Shown piece by piece: positions 1,736 to 37,369 of a DNA stretch of 64,000 nt. The translations under genes and the position numbers were made by a program. The notes under the pieces were generated by a model, which did no database searches, was not told where the DNA came from, and was given only the letters and a program-made list of their open reading frames with translations. The stretch comes from Marinitoga aeolica (GTDB taxonomy: Bacteria; Thermotogota; Thermotogae; Petrotogales; Petrotogaceae), in contig NZ_CP069362.1 in the NCBI RefSeq assembly GCF_029910535.1, positions 558,001 to 622,000 of the forward strand, given 5' to 3'. How positions within the stretch are numbered: position 1 is the first letter of the stretch; the number at the start of each line of letters is the position of its first letter.

Positions 1736-4634
<2,899 letters not shown>

Positions 4635-4642
<8 letters not shown>

Positions 4643-4671
4643 TTATCTTTCACTATGCACTTGTCAATGAG
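4635..4671 (-). repeat. 5' arm of the 23S rRNA processing stem
   Basis: Inverted complement of 1698-1735 with few mismatches. It begins right after the tRNA-Ala 3' end and runs into the 5' end of 23S, so the tRNA and 23S precursors are separated by this stem. Confidence 0.8.
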
Positions 4672-4672
4672 C

Positions 4673-4748
4673 TGGTGGAGTAGAGGGGACTTGAACCCCT
4701 AACCTTCTGCGTGCAAGGCAGACGCTCTCCCAGTTGAGCTACTACCCC
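4673..4748 (-). tRNA. tRNA-Ala (anticodon TGC)
   Basis: A 76-base tRNA in the 16S-23S spacer. The acceptor stem is GGGGTAG with CTACTCC, followed by an A discriminator and an encoded CCA. The D-arm region (AGCTCAACTGGGAGAGC), anticodon loop with TGC and T-arm (GGTTCAAGTCC) are all readable. It is the only tRNA in the spacer; many bacteria carry tRNA-Ile and tRNA-Ala together here. Confidence 0.96.
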
Positions 4749-28776: not shown

Positions 28777-30366
28777 TTATTTCATTAAATATTTAATTGT
28801 ATTTATTGCAAGTTGTGCATCATTTCCCCATTGCCAACCATTATGTAATAAATCACTGGTATCTCCAGTTCCATCATCAAATGGAGAACTATCCCCAATC
28901 GCAACTACTTTTCCTTTTCCATAATTAGTCACTATCATATATGGCTTTTTCTCTGAATTTGCAATTAATACTTTCACATTTTTATTTAGTATTTTGATAG
29001 ATGATCCATTCCAAACTCCTATATTTTTAATTCCTTGTGTAATCTCATCTTTATATACATATTTTAAAGGTGCTTCTTCTAAATCATCTCCAACAAATTT
29101 AAACCCAAAGGTTTCAACAAACGTATTAAATATTCTTGGTGAATCCCAACCATTTCCATTCCTGTCTGAATTTCCATGATCTGCAATTATGAATAATGAT
29201 CCTCCATTTTTAACAAAATTCAATATTGCAGCTATTTCTTCTTCCTTAAATGGTTTATTGGGTTCCGGAATAACTAATATTTTATACATCTGAAGTATAT
29301 TTTCATCTAAATTTTCTTTTATTTCATTAACACTTAATCCTAAATTTCTAACTGCATCAGCAAAATCCGAATATGCTCCATTTATTACCCAATCAGCATT
29401 TCCAGCAGTTTGCCCATGATAATTGTCAAATAATACTTTATTACTATAGCTGTCTTTTTCTTTATTCACTGGAATAATTTTCATACTTGTTTTATTTCCT
29501 TTTTTATCAGAAATAGCTCTTAAAACTAATTTGAAATTTTCTGGTATTGTTTCTAAATCGATTTTTATAATTGTATTATTTCTCAATAATTCTACATTTT
29601 TTATGTTACCTTTTAATATTCTAATAGATTTATTAGCTATAATACTTTTTTCATTTAATGGTTCATTAAATTCTATATAAATTGAATTATCTCTTATTGC
29701 ATATGTTTTCACTTCTGGAGGAAACACGTCATCGACAACTATATCTTTCATATCTCTTGGCCAAAGTTCATATGCTGACATATATTGACCTAAAACCCCT
29801 ACAACTTTCATATTTATTCCTGTTTTAAATAATGCTGGATTTATTCCTGTATTTTCACGAATAAATACCATCCCTTTTCCGCTTCCATCATCTATAAATA
29901 TTTTTCTCACATCGTATTTATCTATTTTTACTATTTTACCCTCAGTTTCTAAAAACATCCCTTCATATTCTTCTTTATTTATATCTTTAGTTTTTATTTT
30001 TATAGGGTTTGGTAAAGGATTATTTCTCGATATTATCTTATAATAATGAGATTTATTATCACTTTCTAAAACCAATTCTGTATTATTTCTATGTGTCCAA
30101 ATATATCCTCTTGCTTCCACCAAATCGCCTCTATTGACATTCTCAAATTGTCCTCCTCTATAATATAGATTTATTCCTCCTGTTTTATCTTGAATTATGA
30201 TTATGTTAACATCATATGGTCCAGGCTCAACAGTAACTATTCCTCTAACAGTCACTGTTTGCAAATCTTTTAATTGTCTCGCATCTGAGATACTAATAAC
30301 ATTATTAGATGAAAAGGCTATAATAATCATAAACAAAGTAACTAATACAAGGATATTTTTTTTCAT
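28777..30366 (-). CDS. Exported multidomain OB-fold protein, function unknown
   Basis: 529 residues with a signal peptide at 1-25. Next come two OB-fold-like modules: one at about 30-110 (TVTVRGIVTVEPG, IIIQDKTGGINLYY, GDLVEARGYI) and a second at about 125-210 (FLETEGKIVKID, IFIDDGSGKGMVFI). These resemble the OB modules of YhcR-type surface nucleases, but no nuclease domain is present. At about 213-310 there is an Ig-like module (SIYIEFNEPLNEKSI). The last 200 residues look like the DUF4350 / GATase-like Rossmann fold (ILVIPEPNKPFKEEEI, LNFVKNGGSLFIIADHG). AGGAGGG precedes the ATG. Possibly an envelope binding protein. Confidence 0.7.
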   Translation of the reverse strand: MKKNILVLVTLFMIIIAFSSNNVISISDARQLKDLQTVTVRGIVTVEPGPYDVNIIIIQDKTGGINLYYRGGQFENVNRGDLVEARGYIWTHRNNTELVLESDNKSHYYKIISRNNPLPNPIKIKTKDINKEEYEGMFLETEGKIVKIDKYDVRKIFIDDGSGKGMVFIRENTGINPALFKTGINMKVVGVLGQYMSAYELWPRDMKDIVVDDVFPPEVKTYAIRDNSIYIEFNEPLNEKSIIANKSIRILKGNIKNVELLRNNTIIKIDLETIPENFKLVLRAISDKKGNKTSMKIIPVNKEKDSYSNKVLFDNYHGQTAGNADWVINGAYSDFADAVRNLGLSVNEIKENLDENILQMYKILVIPEPNKPFKEEEIAAILNFVKNGGSLFIIADHGNSDRNGNGWDSPRIFNTFVETFGFKFVGDDLEEAPLKYVYKDEITQGIKNIGVWNGSSIKILNKNVKVLIANSEKKPYMIVTNYGKGKVVAIGDSSPFDDGTGDTSDLLHNGWQWGNDAQLAINTIKYLMK

Positions 30367-30417: not shown

Positions 30418-30465
30418 AAATAAAAAGTGGAGCACATTTATTTAAATGCACTCCACTTTTTATTT
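30418..30465 (-). terminator. Terminator after the PepSY gene
   Basis: Long hairpin (arms 30418-30440 and 30443-30465) with only a two-base internal mismatch, followed by T6 on the minus strand. It closes the regulator operon. Confidence 0.9.
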
Positions 30466-30499: not shown

Positions 30500-30913
30500 T
30501 TAGTCTTTTTCCTCATTGTCTTTTTCTGAATCATTTTCTAAATCATTATCTAATTCATCTTTTAATATTTTACCATTATTAGCATCAATTTTTACATCAT
30601 GAATTTTTTGACCATCATTTATTAATACTCCATACACTATATTACCATTCTCATCTTCAAGCTGTATATCAGTTATACTTCCATTAATATAATTTAACGC
30701 TACGCTTTTTGCTTCATCTTTTGTCAATTTTACTTTCACATTGATCAAATTATCATCATTTTTTTCTTCGTCTGAATCTTTCATATTTTTTGATTGTTCA
30801 ACAGTGGTAGATTTTTGACTTGGTAAAATATTTTTATTTGTTGCAAAAATAGAAACCGTACTTAAAATAATTAAAGCTGCTATCATACTTACAATAATTA
30901 ATTTTGATCTCAT
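30500..30913 (-). CDS. Membrane-anchored PepSY-domain protein
   Basis: 137 residues: a signal anchor (MRSKLIIVSMIAALIILSTVSIFA), a Ser/Asp-rich linker, one PepSY domain (LTKDEAKSVALNYI to IDANNGKIL, about 62-120) and a strongly acidic tail (DNDLENDSEKDNEEKD). PepSY proteins bind or inhibit peptidases and often accompany two-component systems in the envelope. It lies directly downstream of the histidine kinase gene with 140 bases between that contain two direct copies of TTCTCATA, so it may be the regulated output or a feedback modulator of the system. Strong ribosome site GGAGGGA before the ATG. Confidence 0.85.
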   Translation of the reverse strand: MRSKLIIVSMIAALIILSTVSIFATNKNILPSQKSTTVEQSKNMKDSDEEKNDDNLINVKVKLTKDEAKSVALNYINGSITDIQLEDENGNIVYGVLINDGQKIHDVKIDANNGKILKDELDNDLENDSEKDNEEKD

Positions 30914-30968
30914 AAAATCCCTCCTTTTGTTTTTTGTATTTTGTTTTTTTATTTATTTTTTAGCTTAT

Positions 30969-31053
30969 CGCATATTCTCACCTCCCAAACTTCCTACAAC
31001 TAGATACTATAATATGAATATGAGAATATGCTTAAAAAAATATGAGAATTTTA
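30969..31053 (-). promoter_or_regulatory. Probable regulator-binding repeats upstream of the PepSY gene
   Basis: On the minus strand TTCTCATA occurs twice with 22 bases between starts (complements at 31019-31026 and 31041-31048), i.e. two turns of helix apart, the geometry expected for OmpR/PhoB-type regulators. A -10-like TATTATAGT follows. A third, inverted copy (GCATATTCTCA, 30970-30980) lies downstream. The related TGAGAA-AA-TTCTCA occurs before the response-regulator gene. Confidence 0.5.
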
Positions 31054-32424
31054 TCAGTTTTGTTTTGTGGGGAAAACTATTATCATTTTTGTTCCTTTTC
31101 CCAACTCACTATCTGCATAAATTATTCCACCATGAATTTCAACAATCTGCTTAATAATTGATAATCCTAATCCAAATCCTCCAATTTCTCTAGATCTTGA
31201 TTTATCGGCTCTATAAAAACGTTCAAAAATAAAAGGTATATCATCTTTAGAAATCCCTATTCCGTTATCTTCTATTATTAATTCTATTTTTTCCCCATTT
31301 ATATATTTGCCTTTAATATTTATTATACAAATATCCTTAGAATATTTTATACTATTATCTATTAATCCTCTTATCATTTGTTTTATAAGCCTTTTATCTG
31401 CATTTATTAAGATATTTTCAGAAATTTCATTTTTTATTATTATTTTTTTATTCTTAATTATTTCAATTTCTTTTATAATTTCGTTTACTAAACTTTTTAT
31501 ATAGAAATTACTTTTTTCAATTTTTATGTTATTATCATCACTATTTGCTAAATATAATAATGTATCTATTAGCTTAGAAACATTATCTAATTCTCTTTTA
31601 ATAGAATTAATACTTTCATCCAAAACTTGAGGGTCTTTCTTTCCCCACCTACTTAAAATATCTATATAACCTTTAACAACAGCCAGGGGTGTTGTTAGTT
31701 CATGTGATGCATCCATAACAAATCTTTTTTGTTTTTTATACCCCTCTTCTATTCTACTAATAAAGGAATTAAATGTTTCAGAAAGTCTTTTTATCTCATC
31801 ATCTGGTCCTTTGATTTTTATTCTCTTTGATAAATCATTGATTGTTATTTTATTTGCTTGTTCAATTATATTATCAATAGGTTTAAGAACTTTTTTACTC
31901 ATAAGAAATCCCAAAAACATTGATATAAAAAAAGCTATTAAATTTATTATTATTAATATCCAAAATAGAGCTTTTAAAAAATTATTTTCATTATCAAAAT
32001 CTTTAACAATTTGAATATCATAAGAATTATTATTAAAATCTAAAAAACTACTATTAAAATAAATCAAATTACCTTCTTCACTATTTTCTACCAAAGTTTT
32101 AAATATATTTTTATTTTCTTTATAAGAATCTTTTTTTTCATTAGACTTATATATCAATTTCCCATTTTTTACTATATATAAGTCTATATTTTGATTAATT
32201 CCAAAAAGATCAATTAAATTTTGATTATAAAAATTACTATCTTTTAAAATATACTCTTTTAGTTTGTGTTCCAAATTCTTTATTTCTTGTGATACCTTAT
32301 AATAAATATAGTATTTAGTACTAAAATATGTTGTCCCACTCACAATTATTAAAGTTATTATAAACAAAACTGCATATATAATTGCTAATTTAAATGATAT
32401 TGTTTTAAATTTTTGAAGTTTCAT
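31054..32424 (-). CDS. Sensor histidine kinase of an OmpR-type two-component system
   Basis: 456 residues. Two membrane segments (about 12-34 and 152-176) enclose a small extracytoplasmic sensor region of about 115 residues; then HAMP (about 177-230), dimerisation domain with phospho-acceptor H241 in DASHELTTPL, and the ATPase domain with NSIKYS, IEDNGIGISKDD, ERFYRADKSRS and GFGLGLSIIKQI. All catalytic boxes are intact. It starts 4 bases after the regulator gene with its ribosome site (GAGGAGTG) overlapping that stop, so they are translated together. The stimulus is unknown; envelope state is suggested by the neighbours. Confidence 0.93.
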   Translation of the reverse strand: MKLQKFKTISFKLAIIYAVLFIITLIIVSGTTYFSTKYYIYYKVSQEIKNLEHKLKEYILKDSNFYNQNLIDLFGINQNIDLYIVKNGKLIYKSNEKKDSYKENKNIFKTLVENSEEGNLIYFNSSFLDFNNNSYDIQIVKDFDNENNFLKALFWILIIINLIAFFISMFLGFLMSKKVLKPIDNIIEQANKITINDLSKRIKIKGPDDEIKRLSETFNSFISRIEEGYKKQKRFVMDASHELTTPLAVVKGYIDILSRWGKKDPQVLDESINSIKRELDNVSKLIDTLLYLANSDDNNIKIEKSNFYIKSLVNEIIKEIEIIKNKKIIIKNEISENILINADKRLIKQMIRGLIDNSIKYSKDICIINIKGKYINGEKIELIIEDNGIGISKDDIPFIFERFYRADKSRSREIGGFGLGLSIIKQIVEIHGGIIYADSELGKGTKMIIVFPTKQN

Positions 32425-32428
32425 TCTA

Positions 32429-33103
32429 TCACTCCTCTATTTTATAACCAACACCACGAATTGTTTTTATTAATTTTGTACCATATGGGTAATCGATTTT
32501 TTTTCTAAGATATCTAATGTAAACATCCAATATATTTGGTTCTCCAAAAAAATCGTAACCCCATATTTTTTCTATTATTTGTTCCCTTGTTAGAACCCTT
32601 CCTTTATTTTTAACTAAATATTCAAGTAATTCGTATTCTTTTTTGGTAAGTTCAATAATTTCTCCCTTTTTAATTACCTGTCTTTTTATAAAATTAATAG
32701 TTAAATCCCCTATTTTTATTTCTAAATCTTTTTTCCCCATATTTCTTCTTCTTCTAATCGCCGCTCTAATTCTTGCTAGCAATTCTTCCATCTCAAATGG
32801 TTTTGTAACATAATCATCAGCTCCCATATCTAATCCAATGACCTTATCCATTATATCTCTTTTTGCAGTTAACATTATTATAGGGATATCAGATATTAAT
32901 CTGATTTTTCTACATATTTCTAGACCATTAATTTTTGGCAACATTAAATCAAGTAATATAATTTCATAATTATTTTCTTCAAACATCTCAAGCCCTTTTT
33001 TACCATCAAAAGCTACATCAAATGTATACCCCTCATGTAGTAATTCTAATTCTAATACTCTAACTATAGCTCTATCATCTTCTATTATCAATATGTTTTT
33101 CAT
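32429..33103 (-). CDS. OmpR/PhoB-family response regulator
   Basis: 224 residues. Receiver domain with acidic pocket (IEDD at 7-10), phospho-acceptor D52 in LLDLMLP, T in LTAKRD and K in TKPFEM; C-terminal winged helix with LTKKEYELLEYLVKNKGRV and the wing GTKLIKTIRGVGYKIEE. Partner of the following kinase. AGGAGGATT precedes the ATG. The upstream region shared with the metallophosphoesterase operon contains a TGAGAA-AA-TTCTCA inverted repeat, a candidate for its own operator. Confidence 0.95.
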   Translation of the reverse strand: MKNILIIEDDRAIVRVLELELLHEGYTFDVAFDGKKGLEMFEENNYEIILLDLMLPKINGLEICRKIRLISDIPIIMLTAKRDIMDKVIGLDMGADDYVTKPFEMEELLARIRAAIRRRRNMGKKDLEIKIGDLTINFIKRQVIKKGEIIELTKKEYELLEYLVKNKGRVLTREQIIEKIWGYDFFGEPNILDVYIRYLRKKIDYPYGTKLIKTIRGVGYKIEE

Positions 33104-33140
33104 TTATAATCCTCCTAAACACTTATTTCTCTATTTAAAG

Positions 33141-33193
33141 ATTATATAGTTTTCTTGTTAAAAACATATTATTCTATTCTGAGAAAATTCTCA
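33141..33193. promoter_or_regulatory. Regulator promoter element and inverted repeat in the divergent region
   Basis: TATAAT on the minus strand (33141-33146) is a likely -10 for the response-regulator gene. About 35 bases upstream lies TGAGAA-AA-TTCTCA (33180-33193), the same half-site as before the PepSY gene. On the plus side TATAAT at 33227-33232 may be the -10 of the metallophosphoesterase gene. No good -35 was found for either. Confidence 0.5.
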
Positions 33194-33272
33194 TTTTTAA
33201 TTTTTCTAATTTTAAAATTTATTTGTTATAATAAGAAAAATTATAAAAAATTTTATTTAGAGGGGGAATTTT

Positions 33273-34307
33273 ATGAAATTTATTAATCAAAAATTATTAA
33301 TAATATTTATTATGTTTATTGGAATAATTTCAATTTTTAAAGTTTCATATCCATTTATACAAGATAGAGATGAAAATCTGATATTTCAAAATACAAATTT
33401 AGCAAAAAATAATGTAACTTCTGATGATTATACTTTTGTTGTTCTTGGAGATAACAAAAACTCTATATCTACCTTTAATAAAATTATTCAACAAATAAAT
33501 AATGATAATTCTGTCAAATTTGTAATAAATACTGGTGATATGGTTTTTGATGGCAATCCTATAAAATATGATTTCTTCTTAAAACAAGTTAAAAAATTAA
33601 ATAAACCTATGTTACCTGTAGTTGGAAATCATGACGTCGCAGATGGTGGAGTTGATAGATATTTAAAAATATTTGGGCCGTTATATTATTCATTTCATTT
33701 AAAAAACTCCTATTTTATTATGTTAAATAATTCAAATGAAGAAGAATTAGACCCTTGGCAAATGAATTGGTTAAAAGATGAACTGGAAAAATCTAAAAAT
33801 TATAAATATACTTTCGTTTTTATGCATGTTCCTATATATGATCCACGAAATGATATTAATCATCAACCTGGGCATTCATTAAAAAATTTATCCAATGCTA
33901 AAGAATTGTTAGATCTTTTAAATAATTACAATATAACTCAAGTGTTTTTTGGACACATTCATGGTTATTATGTAGGGAAATGGGATAATGTTCCTTATAC
34001 TGTTACTGGTGGTGCTGGTGCAGAATTAGTTGGTAAAAATCCAAAACATGATTTTTACCATTATATAAAAGTTCATGTAAATAATAATAATGTTTCATAT
34101 GAGTTAATTAAATTGGATTCACCAGATTTTAATTTCATTGATAGAGTAGGTGCTTTTTTATGGATATATTTATACTCCACTATTGTTATTAATTTTTGGT
34201 TTATATTACTTTTAATTTCAACTTTAATTCTTTTAAAATTATATCTTAAAAAGTTTGGATTCTCCTATTTTTCTCTCGCTAAGAAATTTTTCAAAAGAAA
34301 GCATTAA
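33273..34307 (+). CDS. Membrane-anchored metallophosphoesterase, copy 1
   Basis: 344 residues. An N-terminal membrane segment (about 8-27), a calcineurin-like phosphoesterase domain (about 50-255), and a C-terminal membrane segment (about 295-318) followed by a basic tail. Metal motifs: TGDMVFDG, VVGNHDVADG, FMHVP and FGHIHGYY are intact; the first motif, normally GDxH, is GDNK here, so one metal ligand differs. The topology puts the catalytic domain probably outside the membrane. 407 bases of the gene are identical to copy 2. Flanked by genes for lipid-carrier handling, it may act on a polyprenyl or other envelope phosphate (inference). AGAGGGGGA precedes the ATG. Confidence 0.88.
   Translation: MKFINQKLLIIFIMFIGIISIFKVSYPFIQDRDENLIFQNTNLAKNNVTSDDYTFVVLGDNKNSISTFNKIIQQINNDNSVKFVINTGDMVFDGNPIKYDFFLKQVKKLNKPMLPVVGNHDVADGGVDRYLKIFGPLYYSFHLKNSYFIMLNNSNEEELDPWQMNWLKDELEKSKNYKYTFVFMHVPIYDPRNDINHQPGHSLKNLSNAKELLDLLNNYNITQVFFGHIHGYYVGKWDNVPYTVTGGAGAELVGKNPKHDFYHYIKVHVNNNNVSYELIKLDSPDFNFIDRVGAFLWIYLYSTIVINFWFILLLISTLILLKLYLKKFGFSYFSLAKKFFKRKH
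33696..34102 (+). repeat. 407-bp perfect repeat, copy A
   Basis: Identical to 35564-35970 by base-by-base reading. The surrounding parts of the two genes differ at numerous positions, so the identical tract is sharply bounded, as after gene conversion. Confidence 0.9.
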
Positions 34308-34343
34308 TTAAAAATTCATTATTTAAACTGGAGGTGTGATTTG

Positions 34344-35120
34344 TTGAAAGATTTTATACTTGGATTAATAATGGGAATTGCTGAGTTACTCCCAGGAATT
34401 AGTGGAGGTACAATAGCAGCCATCTCTGGAAGATATGAAATAATTTTAAAATCTGCATCCGATATTATTTCTTTAAAATGGACAAAAAAATCATTAAAAA
34501 TAATAATTTCTTTACTTACAGGAATGATGATTTCTATATTATTACTATCCAAAATTTTATCATTTATATTTAATAAATACCCTGAATATTCATATGGTAT
34601 TTTTACAGGATTAATTATAGGAGGTTTACTTTATTTATTAAAACGTGTAGATATTAAAAGAAAGTATAATTTTCTTATAACTATTTCAACTTTTATAATA
34701 GCTTTTGCGTTTTTGTCTTACATAAAAAATATTGAAAATTCTTCAGGAAATATTAATTTCTGGTATTTAATTTTCGGAGGAATTATAGCTGTTTCTGTTA
34801 TGGTATTACCAGGTGTAAGTGGTTCATCTATGCTTTTAATAATGGGGCTTTATAAACCCGTTATAGAATCTATTTCAAAATTCAATTTCAACATCATTAT
34901 TCCTATTGGAATAGGTATTTTTATTGGTTTAATTTTTATAATTAAAATATTAGAACATTTTATGGAAGTTTTTCATGATCAAGTTATGTCATTTCTAATA
35001 GGATTAACAATAGCAGGAATGGTTATTATTTTTCCAATAACTTCTAAATGGTTGACTTACGTATTTTTTATAATTGGCATTTTTTTATCAAGATATTTCG
35101 AAAAAATACTAAATAATTAA
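34344..35120 (+). CDS. DUF368 membrane protein (PopT-like polyprenyl-phosphate transporter)
   Basis: 258-residue integral membrane protein with about eight hydrophobic segments. Two related motifs, LLPGISGGTIAAISGRYE near the N terminus and VLPGVSGSSMLLIMGLYK in the middle, show the internal duplication typical of DUF368. Members of this family (PopT) have been reported to return undecaprenyl phosphate to the inner face of the membrane. Its location between two phosphoesterases and beside UppP fits that role. Start: TTG at 34344 (or the adjacent TTG at 34341) after GGAGGTG; the spacing favours 34344. Confidence 0.9.
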   Translation: MKDFILGLIMGIAELLPGISGGTIAAISGRYEIILKSASDIISLKWTKKSLKIIISLLTGMMISILLLSKILSFIFNKYPEYSYGIFTGLIIGGLLYLLKRVDIKRKYNFLITISTFIIAFAFLSYIKNIENSSGNINFWYLIFGGIIAVSVMVLPGVSGSSMLLIMGLYKPVIESISKFNFNIIIPIGIGIFIGLIFIIKILEHFMEVFHDQVMSFLIGLTIAGMVIIFPITSKWLTYVFFIIGIFLSRYFEKILNN

Positions 35121-35143
35121 AATTTAATTAAAGGAGTATAATT

Positions 35144-36121
35144 ATGAATTATACTAAAATTATAAGTATTATCTTTGCATTTATTTTAGGAATAATTTCA
35201 ATTTTTAAGGTCTCATATCCATTTATACAAGATAAAAATGAAAATCTGATATTCCAAAATACAAATTTAGTAAAAAATAATGTAACTTCTGATGATTATA
35301 CTTTTGTTGTTCTTGGAGATAACAAAAACTCTATATCCACTTTTGATAAAATAATTAAGCAAATAAACAGAGATAATTCTATCCGTTTTGTAATAAATAC
35401 TGGAGATATGGTTTTTGATGGTAACCCTATAAAATATGATTTCTTCTTAAAACAAGTTAAAAAATTAAATAAACCCATGTTACCTGTAGTTGGTAATCAC
35501 GATGTTGCAGATGATGGAGTAGGTAGATATTTAGAAATATTTGGACCATTATATTATTCATTCCATTTAAAAAACTCCTATTTTATTATGTTAAATAATT
35601 CAAATGAAGAAGAATTAGACCCTTGGCAAATGAATTGGTTAAAAGATGAACTGGAAAAATCTAAAAATTATAAATATACTTTCGTTTTTATGCATGTTCC
35701 TATATATGATCCACGAAATGATATTAATCATCAACCTGGGCATTCATTAAAAAATTTATCCAATGCTAAAGAATTGTTAGATCTTTTAAATAATTACAAT
35801 ATAACTCAAGTGTTTTTTGGACACATTCATGGTTATTATGTAGGGAAATGGGATAATGTTCCTTATACTGTTACTGGTGGTGCTGGTGCAGAATTAGTTG
35901 GTAAAAATCCAAAACATGATTTTTACCATTATATAAAAGTTCATGTAAATAATAATAATGTTTCATATGAATTAGTTAAACTAGATTCACCAAATTTTAA
36001 TTTTATTGATAGAGTAGGTGCATTTCTATGGCTCTATTCTTATTCTACTATTGTCATTAATTTTTGGCTTATATTACTTTTTTCCAATATAGCATTTATA
36101 ATATTTTTATTATACTTTTAG
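35144..36121 (+). CDS. Membrane-anchored metallophosphoesterase, copy 2
   Basis: 325 residues, paralogue of the gene at 33273. Same architecture: N-terminal membrane segment, phosphoesterase domain with GDNK, GDMVFDG, GNHDVADD, FMHVP and GHIHGYY, and a C-terminal membrane segment, but a shorter tail. The middle 407 bases are identical to copy 1 while both ends have diverged. Ribosome site AAAGGAG precedes the ATG. Keeping two copies around a PopT-like gene suggests a dosage or specificity need, or simply recent duplication followed by homogenisation. Confidence 0.88.
   Translation: MNYTKIISIIFAFILGIISIFKVSYPFIQDKNENLIFQNTNLVKNNVTSDDYTFVVLGDNKNSISTFDKIIKQINRDNSIRFVINTGDMVFDGNPIKYDFFLKQVKKLNKPMLPVVGNHDVADDGVGRYLEIFGPLYYSFHLKNSYFIMLNNSNEEELDPWQMNWLKDELEKSKNYKYTFVFMHVPIYDPRNDINHQPGHSLKNLSNAKELLDLLNNYNITQVFFGHIHGYYVGKWDNVPYTVTGGAGAELVGKNPKHDFYHYIKVHVNNNNVSYELVKLDSPNFNFIDRVGAFLWLYSYSTIVINFWLILLFSNIAFIIFLLYF
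35564..35970 (+). repeat. 407-bp perfect repeat, copy B
   Basis: Second copy of the tract at 33696-34102, offset by 1868 bases. Confidence 0.9.
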
Positions 36122-36141
36122 TTAAAGGTGGTGTTTTAATA

Positions 36142-36885
36142 ATGCAGGAAATTTTATTAGGAATTATTCAGGGTTTAACAGAATTCCTACCAGTTTCAAG
36201 TTCTGGCCATTTAGCTTTATTTTCTAAATTAATTAATTTTGATCCAAATGTTTCGTTCTTTGCTTTTCTTCATTTAATGACATTTTTTGCTGTTTTATTG
36301 TTCGTGTATAAGGAAGTATGGTTTATTTTAAAAGGAATGTTTACTGGTAAAAAAGATGCATGGAACTTAGCTTTAAAAATTATAGTATCTTCTATTCCTG
36401 CAGCTTTTATTGGATTAATGTTTGAAAATCAAATTAGTGAAGCTTTTTCATCACTAAAATTAGTAGGTGTATTTTTCTTATTCACTTCAATAGCTATGAT
36501 TTTATCAGACAGATTTAATGGAAAAAAAGAATTAATGGATATTACATATATTGACGCAATAATAATAGGGTTATTTCAGGCTGCTTCTATTTTCCCTGGA
36601 ATTTCAAGAAGTGGTTTTACACTATTCGGCGCTTTACTTATGAACACAAAAAAAGAAGCTGCATTAAAATATTCCTTTTTAATGAGTTTACCCGTAACAT
36701 TTGGGGCTGGAATGCTTGAAATACATAAAGTTAATTTTACTGCACCTGTTATTTATTCTGGAATATTTACATTTATTTTCGGCGTTTTAGGATTGTTTAT
36801 ATTAAAAAAGACTGTTATAAATGGAAAATTGAAATATTTCGGATATTATACTATAATAGCTGCTATACTGAGTTTTATAGTTTAG
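36142..36885 (+). CDS. uppP: Undecaprenyl-diphosphatase UppP (BacA)
   Basis: 247-residue membrane phosphatase that converts undecaprenyl diphosphate to the monophosphate at the outer membrane leaflet, recycling the lipid carrier of cell-wall synthesis and giving bacitracin resistance. Both signatures are present: LTEFLPVSSSGHL (catalytic Glu and Ser/His region, about 12-24) and PGISRSGFTLFGALLM (about 153-168). The ATG at 36142 follows AAGGTGGTG; the longer frame reaching into the previous gene is not used. It completes a metallophosphoesterase-PopT-metallophosphoesterase-UppP series. Confidence 0.95.
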   Translation: MQEILLGIIQGLTEFLPVSSSGHLALFSKLINFDPNVSFFAFLHLMTFFAVLLFVYKEVWFILKGMFTGKKDAWNLALKIIVSSIPAAFIGLMFENQISEAFSSLKLVGVFFLFTSIAMILSDRFNGKKELMDITYIDAIIIGLFQAASIFPGISRSGFTLFGALLMNTKKEAALKYSFLMSLPVTFGAGMLEIHKVNFTAPVIYSGIFTFIFGVLGLFILKKTVINGKLKYFGYYTIIAAILSFIV

Positions 36886-36898
36886 GGGAAATTTTATA

Positions 36899-37336
36899 AT
36901 GAAGATACTTTTAACTGGAAAAATGGGTATTGGCAAATCAACAATATTAAAAAAAGCCATGAAAAAATATAATATAAAAAATGGCGTTTTTACCAAAAAA
37001 ATTGGTGAAAATGTGTATGCCTGGTTATTAAATTCTGACAAAAAATATATTATAGGAAAGAAATCTAATTATGGCATGCAAATAAATGAAGAAGGTTTTA
37101 ATACTCTTGTTAATGAATTAAAGAAGATTAAATTTCCAGAGTTTTTTGTTATCGATGAAATCGGATATTTAGAAGAAAAGCATATCCCATTTTTAAATGA
37201 AATAAAAAGGTTAATAGAAGAATCAAATAACTTTATAGGAATTATAAGATTGTTTTTTCACGAACGATATTATTTTTTAAATGATTTACCTGTGATTGAA
37301 GTAACAGAAGAAAATAGAAATAATATTGAATTATAA
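36899..37336 (+). CDS. Small P-loop NTPase (THEP1-like)
   Basis: 145 residues. Walker A GKMGIGKST at about 7-15, and Walker B FFVIDEIGYLEE near 79-90, the layout of the THEP1 nucleoside-triphosphatase family, which hydrolyses NTPs to NDPs in vitro. It is somewhat shorter than typical THEP1 proteins (about 175) and lacks some of the conserved middle. It begins 13 bases after uppP with AGGGGAAA as ribosome site and is the last gene of this operon. Biological role is uncertain. Confidence 0.75.
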   Translation: MKILLTGKMGIGKSTILKKAMKKYNIKNGVFTKKIGENVYAWLLNSDKKYIIGKKSNYGMQINEEGFNTLVNELKKIKFPEFFVIDEIGYLEEKHIPFLNEIKRLIEESNNFIGIIRLFFHERYYFLNDLPVIEVTEENRNNIEL

Positions 37337-37337
37337 A

Positions 37338-37369
37338 ATAAAAGCTCCAGATTGCTCTGGAGCTTTTAT
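37338..37369 (+). terminator. Terminator after the NTPase gene
   Basis: Perfect 14-bp stem (ATAAAAGCTCCAGA and complement) with a TTGC loop. Immediately after it a short palindrome (CCATATA-TC-TATATGG, 37374-37389) is seen; nothing else is recognised before the next terminator. Confidence 0.9.

Follow-up and report, generated by a model that had tools for sequence, protein, structure and literature searches.

A DUF368-uppP operon in Marinitoga aeolica with predicted outward-facing phosphoesterases and an adjoining PepSY two-component system

We analysed a window of 64,000 nucleotides of Marinitoga aeolica, positions 558001-622000 of the complete 2.44-Mb genome (the host genome below; feature coordinates are window positions). 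Our subject is an operon in which the genes for a DUF368 protein and for the undecaprenyl-diphosphate phosphatase UppP stand together with two paralogous metallophosphoesterases (MPE1 and MPE2) and an NTPase_1 family protein, divergent from genes for a response regulator (RR), a histidine kinase (HK) and a PepSY-domain protein. All genes named in an earlier note on this DNA (nine open reading frames counted) lie where the note had placed them and have significant family matches. The features are the following:

30418..30465, minus strand: terminator-like hairpin 3′ of the PepSY gene (inverted repeat I13)
30500..30913, minus strand: PepSY-domain protein, 137 aa (Pfam PF03413, 4e-12), with one N-terminal hydrophobic segment (5-23)
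31020..31057, minus strand: putative RR operator upstream of PepSY, CTGATAAAATTCTCAT, and 22 bp further a second TTCTCAT; the feature overlaps the stop codon of HK
31054..32424, minus strand: membrane sensor HK (HAMP, HisKA and HATPase_c matches)
32429..33103, minus strand: OmpR/PhoB-type RR (profile match)
33179..33194, no strand: putative operator CTGAGAAAATTCTCAT with two divergent promoters on either side, their TATAAT boxes each about 32-33 bp away
33273..34307, plus strand: MPE1, membrane-tethered metallophosphoesterase resembling purple acid phosphatases (PAP) and GpdQ, with a basic C-terminal tail (PF00149, 4e-18)
34341..35120, plus strand: DUF368 / PopT-type polyprenyl-phosphate translocase (PF04018, 2.6e-50)
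35144..36121, plus strand: MPE2, short-tailed paralogue of MPE1 (DNA comparison with MPE1)
36142..36885, plus strand: UppP/BacA undecaprenyl-diphosphate phosphatase (PF02673, 9e-67); TTG at 36064 is a possible alternative start
36899..37336, plus strand: NTPase_1 (THEP1-like) protein (profile match)
37338..37369, no strand: terminator-like hairpin at the operon end, read from the sequence

The plus-strand genes are spaced by 13-36 bp, each with a plausible ribosome-binding site before it. The PepSY-domain protein is probably exported. An Rfam scan returned a sole hit, below threshold, on a terminator hairpin.

DUF368 and uppP are each single-copy in the host genome. The DUF368 protein matches PF04018 over its full length (residues 11-235, 171.7 bits against a cut-off of 26) and UppP matches PF02673 with 225.9 bits against a cut-off of 33.4. 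More specific models are not reached: DUF368 scores 127.9 and 114.2 bits with the NCBIfam equivalogs PopT and VIBCH (cut-off 400), and UppP scores 160 bits with the undec_PP_bacA equivalog TIGR00753 (cut-off 217.5) and lies below the NCBIfam subfamily cut-offs. Judged by these scores, the DUF368 protein is a family member and not one of the named equivalogs. It shares its family with the PopT / DUF368 (VCA0040) translocases (PMC9876793) and differs from them in being operonic with uppP and a phosphoesterase; the portion of that paper available to us mentions no DUF368-uppP adjacency. Its linkage to DUF368 likewise sets the window UppP apart from other UppP/BacA proteins. According to published accounts, UppP makes undecaprenyl phosphate (C55-P) on the outer face and DUF368 returns it to the inside (PMC9876793, PMC12826051).

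In all seven Marinitoga genomes DUF368 is followed by uppP, either directly or past one interposed stretch; the NTPase gene comes next, is kept in the genus and carries a frameshift in G024. The two genes are also adjacent, in the opposite order, in five other genomes of the family that represent four genera (G021, G028, G035, G036 and G037; genus labels g4, g5, g7 and g8), and they lie about 3 kb apart within one five-gene run in G101 and G102. Of the 89 Thermotogota genomes carrying both genes, the remaining 75 have them apart. Given this distribution, we conclude that the DUF368-UppP pairing is real, recurrent and lineage-limited.

Two of these loci have features of their own. The five-gene run of G101 and G102 (L169, L170) consists of uppP, a gene for a 207-225-aa protein, a glycogen-synthase-like gene, a galT-like gene and DUF368, the middle names being given by eye. 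At the G025 locus, DUF368 and uppP are separated by about 550 bp (L094 9604-10152) that are non-coding and look repetitive.

The earlier note had proposed a full, regulated recycling module. The DUF368-UppP pair of that proposal stands, but the phosphoesterase and the two-component system do not hold up as conserved parts. Because two of the three parts appear to be strain- or genus-level additions, a conserved regulated module is not upheld; the core idea of DUF368 with UppP is right, and the phosphoesterase and the two-component system would be recent additions.

For the phosphoesterase, linkage to DUF368 or uppP is seen at the level of the genus only. A copy is present at the DUF368 locus in four of the seven Marinitoga genomes, as a single gene before DUF368 in G023, G024 and G027 and in two copies only in the host genome. 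The G024 gene is a clear pseudogene (5-, 1- and 7-nt deletions), a 7-nt deletion changes the C-terminal anchor in G027, and the breaks in G023, a draft with many split genes, may be sequencing errors. G022, G025 and G026 lack the gene, and no remnant of it was seen either in the DUF368-uppP interval of G025 or ahead of DUF368 in the other two genomes.

The two copies of the host genome are 88-89% identical, with an uneven distribution of the differences. Their longest perfectly identical DNA run covers 407 bp (33696-34102 = 35564-35970) between diverged flanks. Codons 141-275 show zero changes, against 19 synonymous and 11 other codon changes in the preceding stretch. This uneven identity, with its perfect block, bears the signature of recent gene conversion between MPE1 and MPE2.

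Homologues of the phosphoesterase occur in 20 of 103 Thermotogota genomes and in metagenome-assembled genomes of Spirochaetota, Bipolaricaulota, Neomarinimicrobiota, candidate-phyla bacteria and a DHVE2 archaeon. After merging genus mates we counted 19 lineages outside Marinitoga, and in none of them (0/19) does DUF368 or uppP lie within four genes of the homologue. We found instead that in three of the 19 lineages (G003/G004; G101; L114) a PF03706 LPG_synthase_TM gene lies within two genes of the phosphoesterase, together with a glycosyltransferase; in L114, two PAP2 genes also follow directly behind it. With about 1-4 PF03706 genes per genome, the probability of this linkage under assumed base rates is ~1e-4 to 2e-3; a chance origin is unlikely, but the pattern was recognised in hindsight.

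The glycosyltransferase of L114, encoded opposite the MPE-PAP2-PAP2 genes and beside LPG_synthase_TM, is part of a 754-aa glycosyltransferase-metallophosphoesterase fusion (2468-4732). Elsewhere in the host genome (G000:C1:53710-55710, L166), two tandem LPG_synthase_TM genes lie among glycosyltransferase-like genes.

MPE1 matches PF00149 with 66.9 bits against a cut-off of 21.5. The metal-ligand motifs GD, GD, GNH, the VP-preceding H and HIH are invariant across 27 sequences, as is an unusual GDNKNS motif. The AlphaFold model of MPE1 (pLDDT, the predicted local distance difference test, 89) matches GpdQ (Z 23.3), Rv0805, Lmo2642 and purple acid phosphatases (Z ~22), with Z 20-23 over GpdQ, Rv0805 and the purple acid phosphatases and with SMPDL3 also close, and a PDB sequence search with the phosphoesterase likewise returns purple acid phosphatases. 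The predicted fold is of the purple-acid-phosphatase/GpdQ type. Compared with GpdQ, Rv0805 and the purple acid phosphatases, the window protein shares the fold and most metal ligands and differs in its anchors at both ends, its invariant GDNKNS and the lack of the DxH histidine and the PAP tyrosine.

A hydrophobic segment precedes and another follows the phosphoesterase domain in 27 of 27 sequences, with a positive C-terminal tail in 26 and a positive N-terminus in 25. Because the flanking termini are positive, the positive-inside rule predicts a catalytic domain outside the cell held by two membrane anchors. This topology had been put forward in the earlier note for the window proteins, and its charge pattern extends across the relatives.

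Such enzymes might simply be outer-face scavengers, GpdQ/PAP-like proteins that act on glycerophosphodiesters, nucleotides or phosphate esters and were recombined into the operon without any tie to the carrier lipid. We consider this somewhat unlikely. The nearest folds (GpdQ, Rv0805, PAP and SMPDL3), the solitary position of most relatives among unrelated genes, and the patchy presence and decaying copies all fit scavenging; yet the LPG_synthase_TM and glycosyltransferase neighbours recur in three lineages and PAP2 in one, two anchors keep the domain near the membrane in every one of the 27 relatives, and four Marinitoga genomes have the gene within the carrier-recycling operon.

A tie to the carrier lipid has a precedent on the other side of the membrane. 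UpsH (YpbG), a Bacillus subtilis metallophosphoesterase of the SigM regulon under envelope-stress control, is reported to free undecaprenyl phosphate from polymers linked to undecaprenyl diphosphate at the cytoplasmic face (Roney and Rudner, PMC11898649). It belongs to COG1408, has one membrane segment and faces the cytoplasm by protease test (PMC11898649). Roney and Rudner predicted that a place in an envelope-stress regulon can serve to find enzymes of this kind (PMC11898649). Both UpsH and the window protein are membrane-associated metallophosphoesterases, and the latter fits the regulon prediction in its context. By its published description UpsH is nevertheless distinct: the window protein combines two anchors and a predicted outward domain with a PAP/GpdQ-like fold, and a two-component system adjoins it in place of SigM. 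Since its predicted topology differs and it would face the opposite side of the membrane, lacking both the cytoplasmic location and the single segment, the window protein is not classed as UpsH-type.

The two-component system next to the operon is of a known kind. PepSY proteins encoded with two-component systems form widespread modules (PMC12714742); in Vibrio cholerae the PepSY protein DbfQ binds the kinase DbfS of the DbfQRS pathway, which answers outer-membrane stress (PMC12714742). The window resembles DbfQRS in encoding a small PepSY protein (137 aa compared with 135) together with RR and HK, all within four genes of each other (30500-33103). It differs in gene order (RR-HK-PepSY), in the operator-bearing gap that precedes PepSY, and in its place beside carrier-lipid genes.

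Conservation of this system as part of the module is not observed. Across the order's 37 other genomes, no HK homologue reached E<1e-60. Where other Marinitoga genomes carry the phosphoesterase, no two-component system adjoins it; in these MPE-bearing relatives the position taken up in the window by the two-component system, directly opposite the operon, is occupied by an OB-fold/GATase-like gene. Because that gene takes its place there, the PepSY-RR-HK set was either inserted in the host genome or lost elsewhere. In the window the OB-fold and GATase-like protein is encoded at 28777-30366; in five of the six other Marinitoga genomes its gene lies next to the DUF368 operon on the upstream side. 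A plasmid source of HK was considered and rejected, the closest plasmid homologues being clostridial and other Bacillota kinases with 33-43% identity; the one annotated plasmid-kinase neighbourhood read contained no PepSY and no phosphoesterase gene.

We found a candidate operator on both sides of the RR and HK genes. The two sites share a motif, CTGA[G/T]AAAATTCTCAT: one copy is in the gap between RR and MPE1, the other immediately before the PepSY gene. In the RR/MPE1 gap the site lies midway between the two divergent TATAAT boxes, which have poor -35 boxes, and the site in the pre-PepSY gap is the only perfect TTCTCAT-N15-TTCTCAT in the genome. The shared TGAGAA/TTCTCA half-sites pointed out in the earlier note exist; TTCTCAT alone occurs in the window at chance frequency. 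The pattern CTGANAAAATTCTCAT is matched perfectly at three places in the 2.44-Mb genome. Of these, the one outside the two gaps lies inside a coding region, and a one-mismatch copy is also within a gene, giving no sign of a wider regulon among these copies. When rare G/C matches are weighted, the shared 20-mer exceeds 300 of 300 shuffles, although the best shuffle comes close; the element stands out in this weighting and by its rarity across the genome. Because the putative operator is common to the RR/MPE1 and PepSY gaps, RR very probably controls the operon and would act on both sites.

If so, the two-component system might have the phosphoesterase as its main target, with DUF368, uppP and the NTPase gene as downstream passengers regulated by read-through. 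OmpR-type two-component genes lie within four genes of the phosphoesterase, in the absence of DUF368 and uppP, in three of the 19 lineages (L116/L117; L121, with PepSY; L159). In L121 as in the window the PepSY/RR/HK set is divergent from the phosphoesterase; for the L121 RR, the window RR is the best match among the 14 receiver proteins of the host genome (201 against 168 bits). The putative operator also lies directly upstream of MPE1. Linkage in three lineages is nonetheless not beyond chance and, as noted above, the phosphoesterase of other Marinitoga genomes has no such neighbour. This alternative is in our view improbable.

The locus might also be a patchwork of recombination without functional logic, in which a two-component system landed in the operon and the phosphoesterase was doubled by accident. 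In the DUF368 tree the window groups with G022/G026 (93/99), in the UppP tree with G024 (84/83), and because the trees disagree the operon was probably reshuffled by recombination into a mosaic; this reshuffling is plausibly tied to the doubling of the phosphoesterase. A patchwork would account for the conflicting trees, for the gene conversion, for the pseudogenes in relatives and for a two-component system unique to the host genome within the order (HK, E<1e-60). It fits poorly with two intact copies in the host that retain all shared motifs and with a putative operator common to both promoter regions flanking the two-component system, and we regard it as very unlikely.

We tentatively favour, with a little under even confidence, a reading of the locus in three layers: a carrier-recycling core, accessory outer-face phosphoesterases and a local regulator. 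In the core, with roles taken from known family members, UppP would dephosphorylate undecaprenyl diphosphate to the monophosphate at the outer face, and DUF368 would bring undecaprenyl phosphate back inside. MPE1 and MPE2, tethered to the outer face through their two anchors, may cleave phospho-linked lipid intermediates there, polyprenyl-diphosphate glycans or a related glycolipid, and the carrier or lipid so released would then be recycled by UppP and DUF368. The phosphoesterase would in this way be the outer-face counterpart of B. subtilis UpsH. The PepSY-RR-HK set, placed between the OB-fold/GATase-like gene and MPE1, would act at one central site to drive both its own expression and that of the operon, and from the second site would drive PepSY, probably a modulator of the kinase.

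Several observations weigh against this reading. At least 14 of the 19 lineages have no lipid-carrier gene near the phosphoesterase, which is dispensable, since its distribution is patchy (20 of 103 Thermotogota genomes) and its copies decay in Marinitoga. The enrichment of two-component genes near it is within chance (three of 19 lineages, P ~0.05-0.13 under base rates that assume ~2,000 genes per genome, with n=21; merging to 19 lineages changes little), and by plain identity the operator is not significant (15/17, P = 0.11). The GpdQ-type DxH histidine is a lysine in the window copies (GDNK), and the PAP charge-transfer tyrosine of GDxxY is a phenylalanine in both (GDMVF); among the relatives, GDLVY with the tyrosine occurs only in L124, L128 and L159. 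Because both residues are absent, the first metal site seems to lack one ligand, and catalytic activity is not certain. Substrate, regulation and signal, moreover, are parts of the reading that we infer.

On balance the most economical account would be a housekeeping recycling operon that acquired an outer-face phosphoesterase for lipid-linked phosphates and, in the host strain, a stress regulator. A role of the phosphoesterase as a component acting on polyprenyl phosphates is a plausible candidate, as is control of the operon by envelope stress. We found no operon of this make-up described in the literature searched.

A bolder and rather unlikely proposal is that a GDNKNS family of outward, twice-anchored phosphoesterases frees the carrier at the outer leaflet from polyprenyl-phosphate-linked glycans that have stalled; with UppP and the DUF368 flippase joined to it under a PepSY two-component system, a single regulated operon would liberate the carrier, dephosphorylate it and return it. 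If true, these phosphoesterases would be a previously undescribed family. Should the phosphoesterase free carrier lipid on the outer face, as in the favoured reading, it would mirror the cytoplasmic UpsH and imply that cells can rescue carrier trapped after flipping, and this would bear on the survival of drugs that sequester lipid-linked precursors. Whatever the phosphoesterase does, the DUF368-uppP operon provides gene-neighbourhood support for pairing a C55-PP phosphatase with a C55-P translocase.

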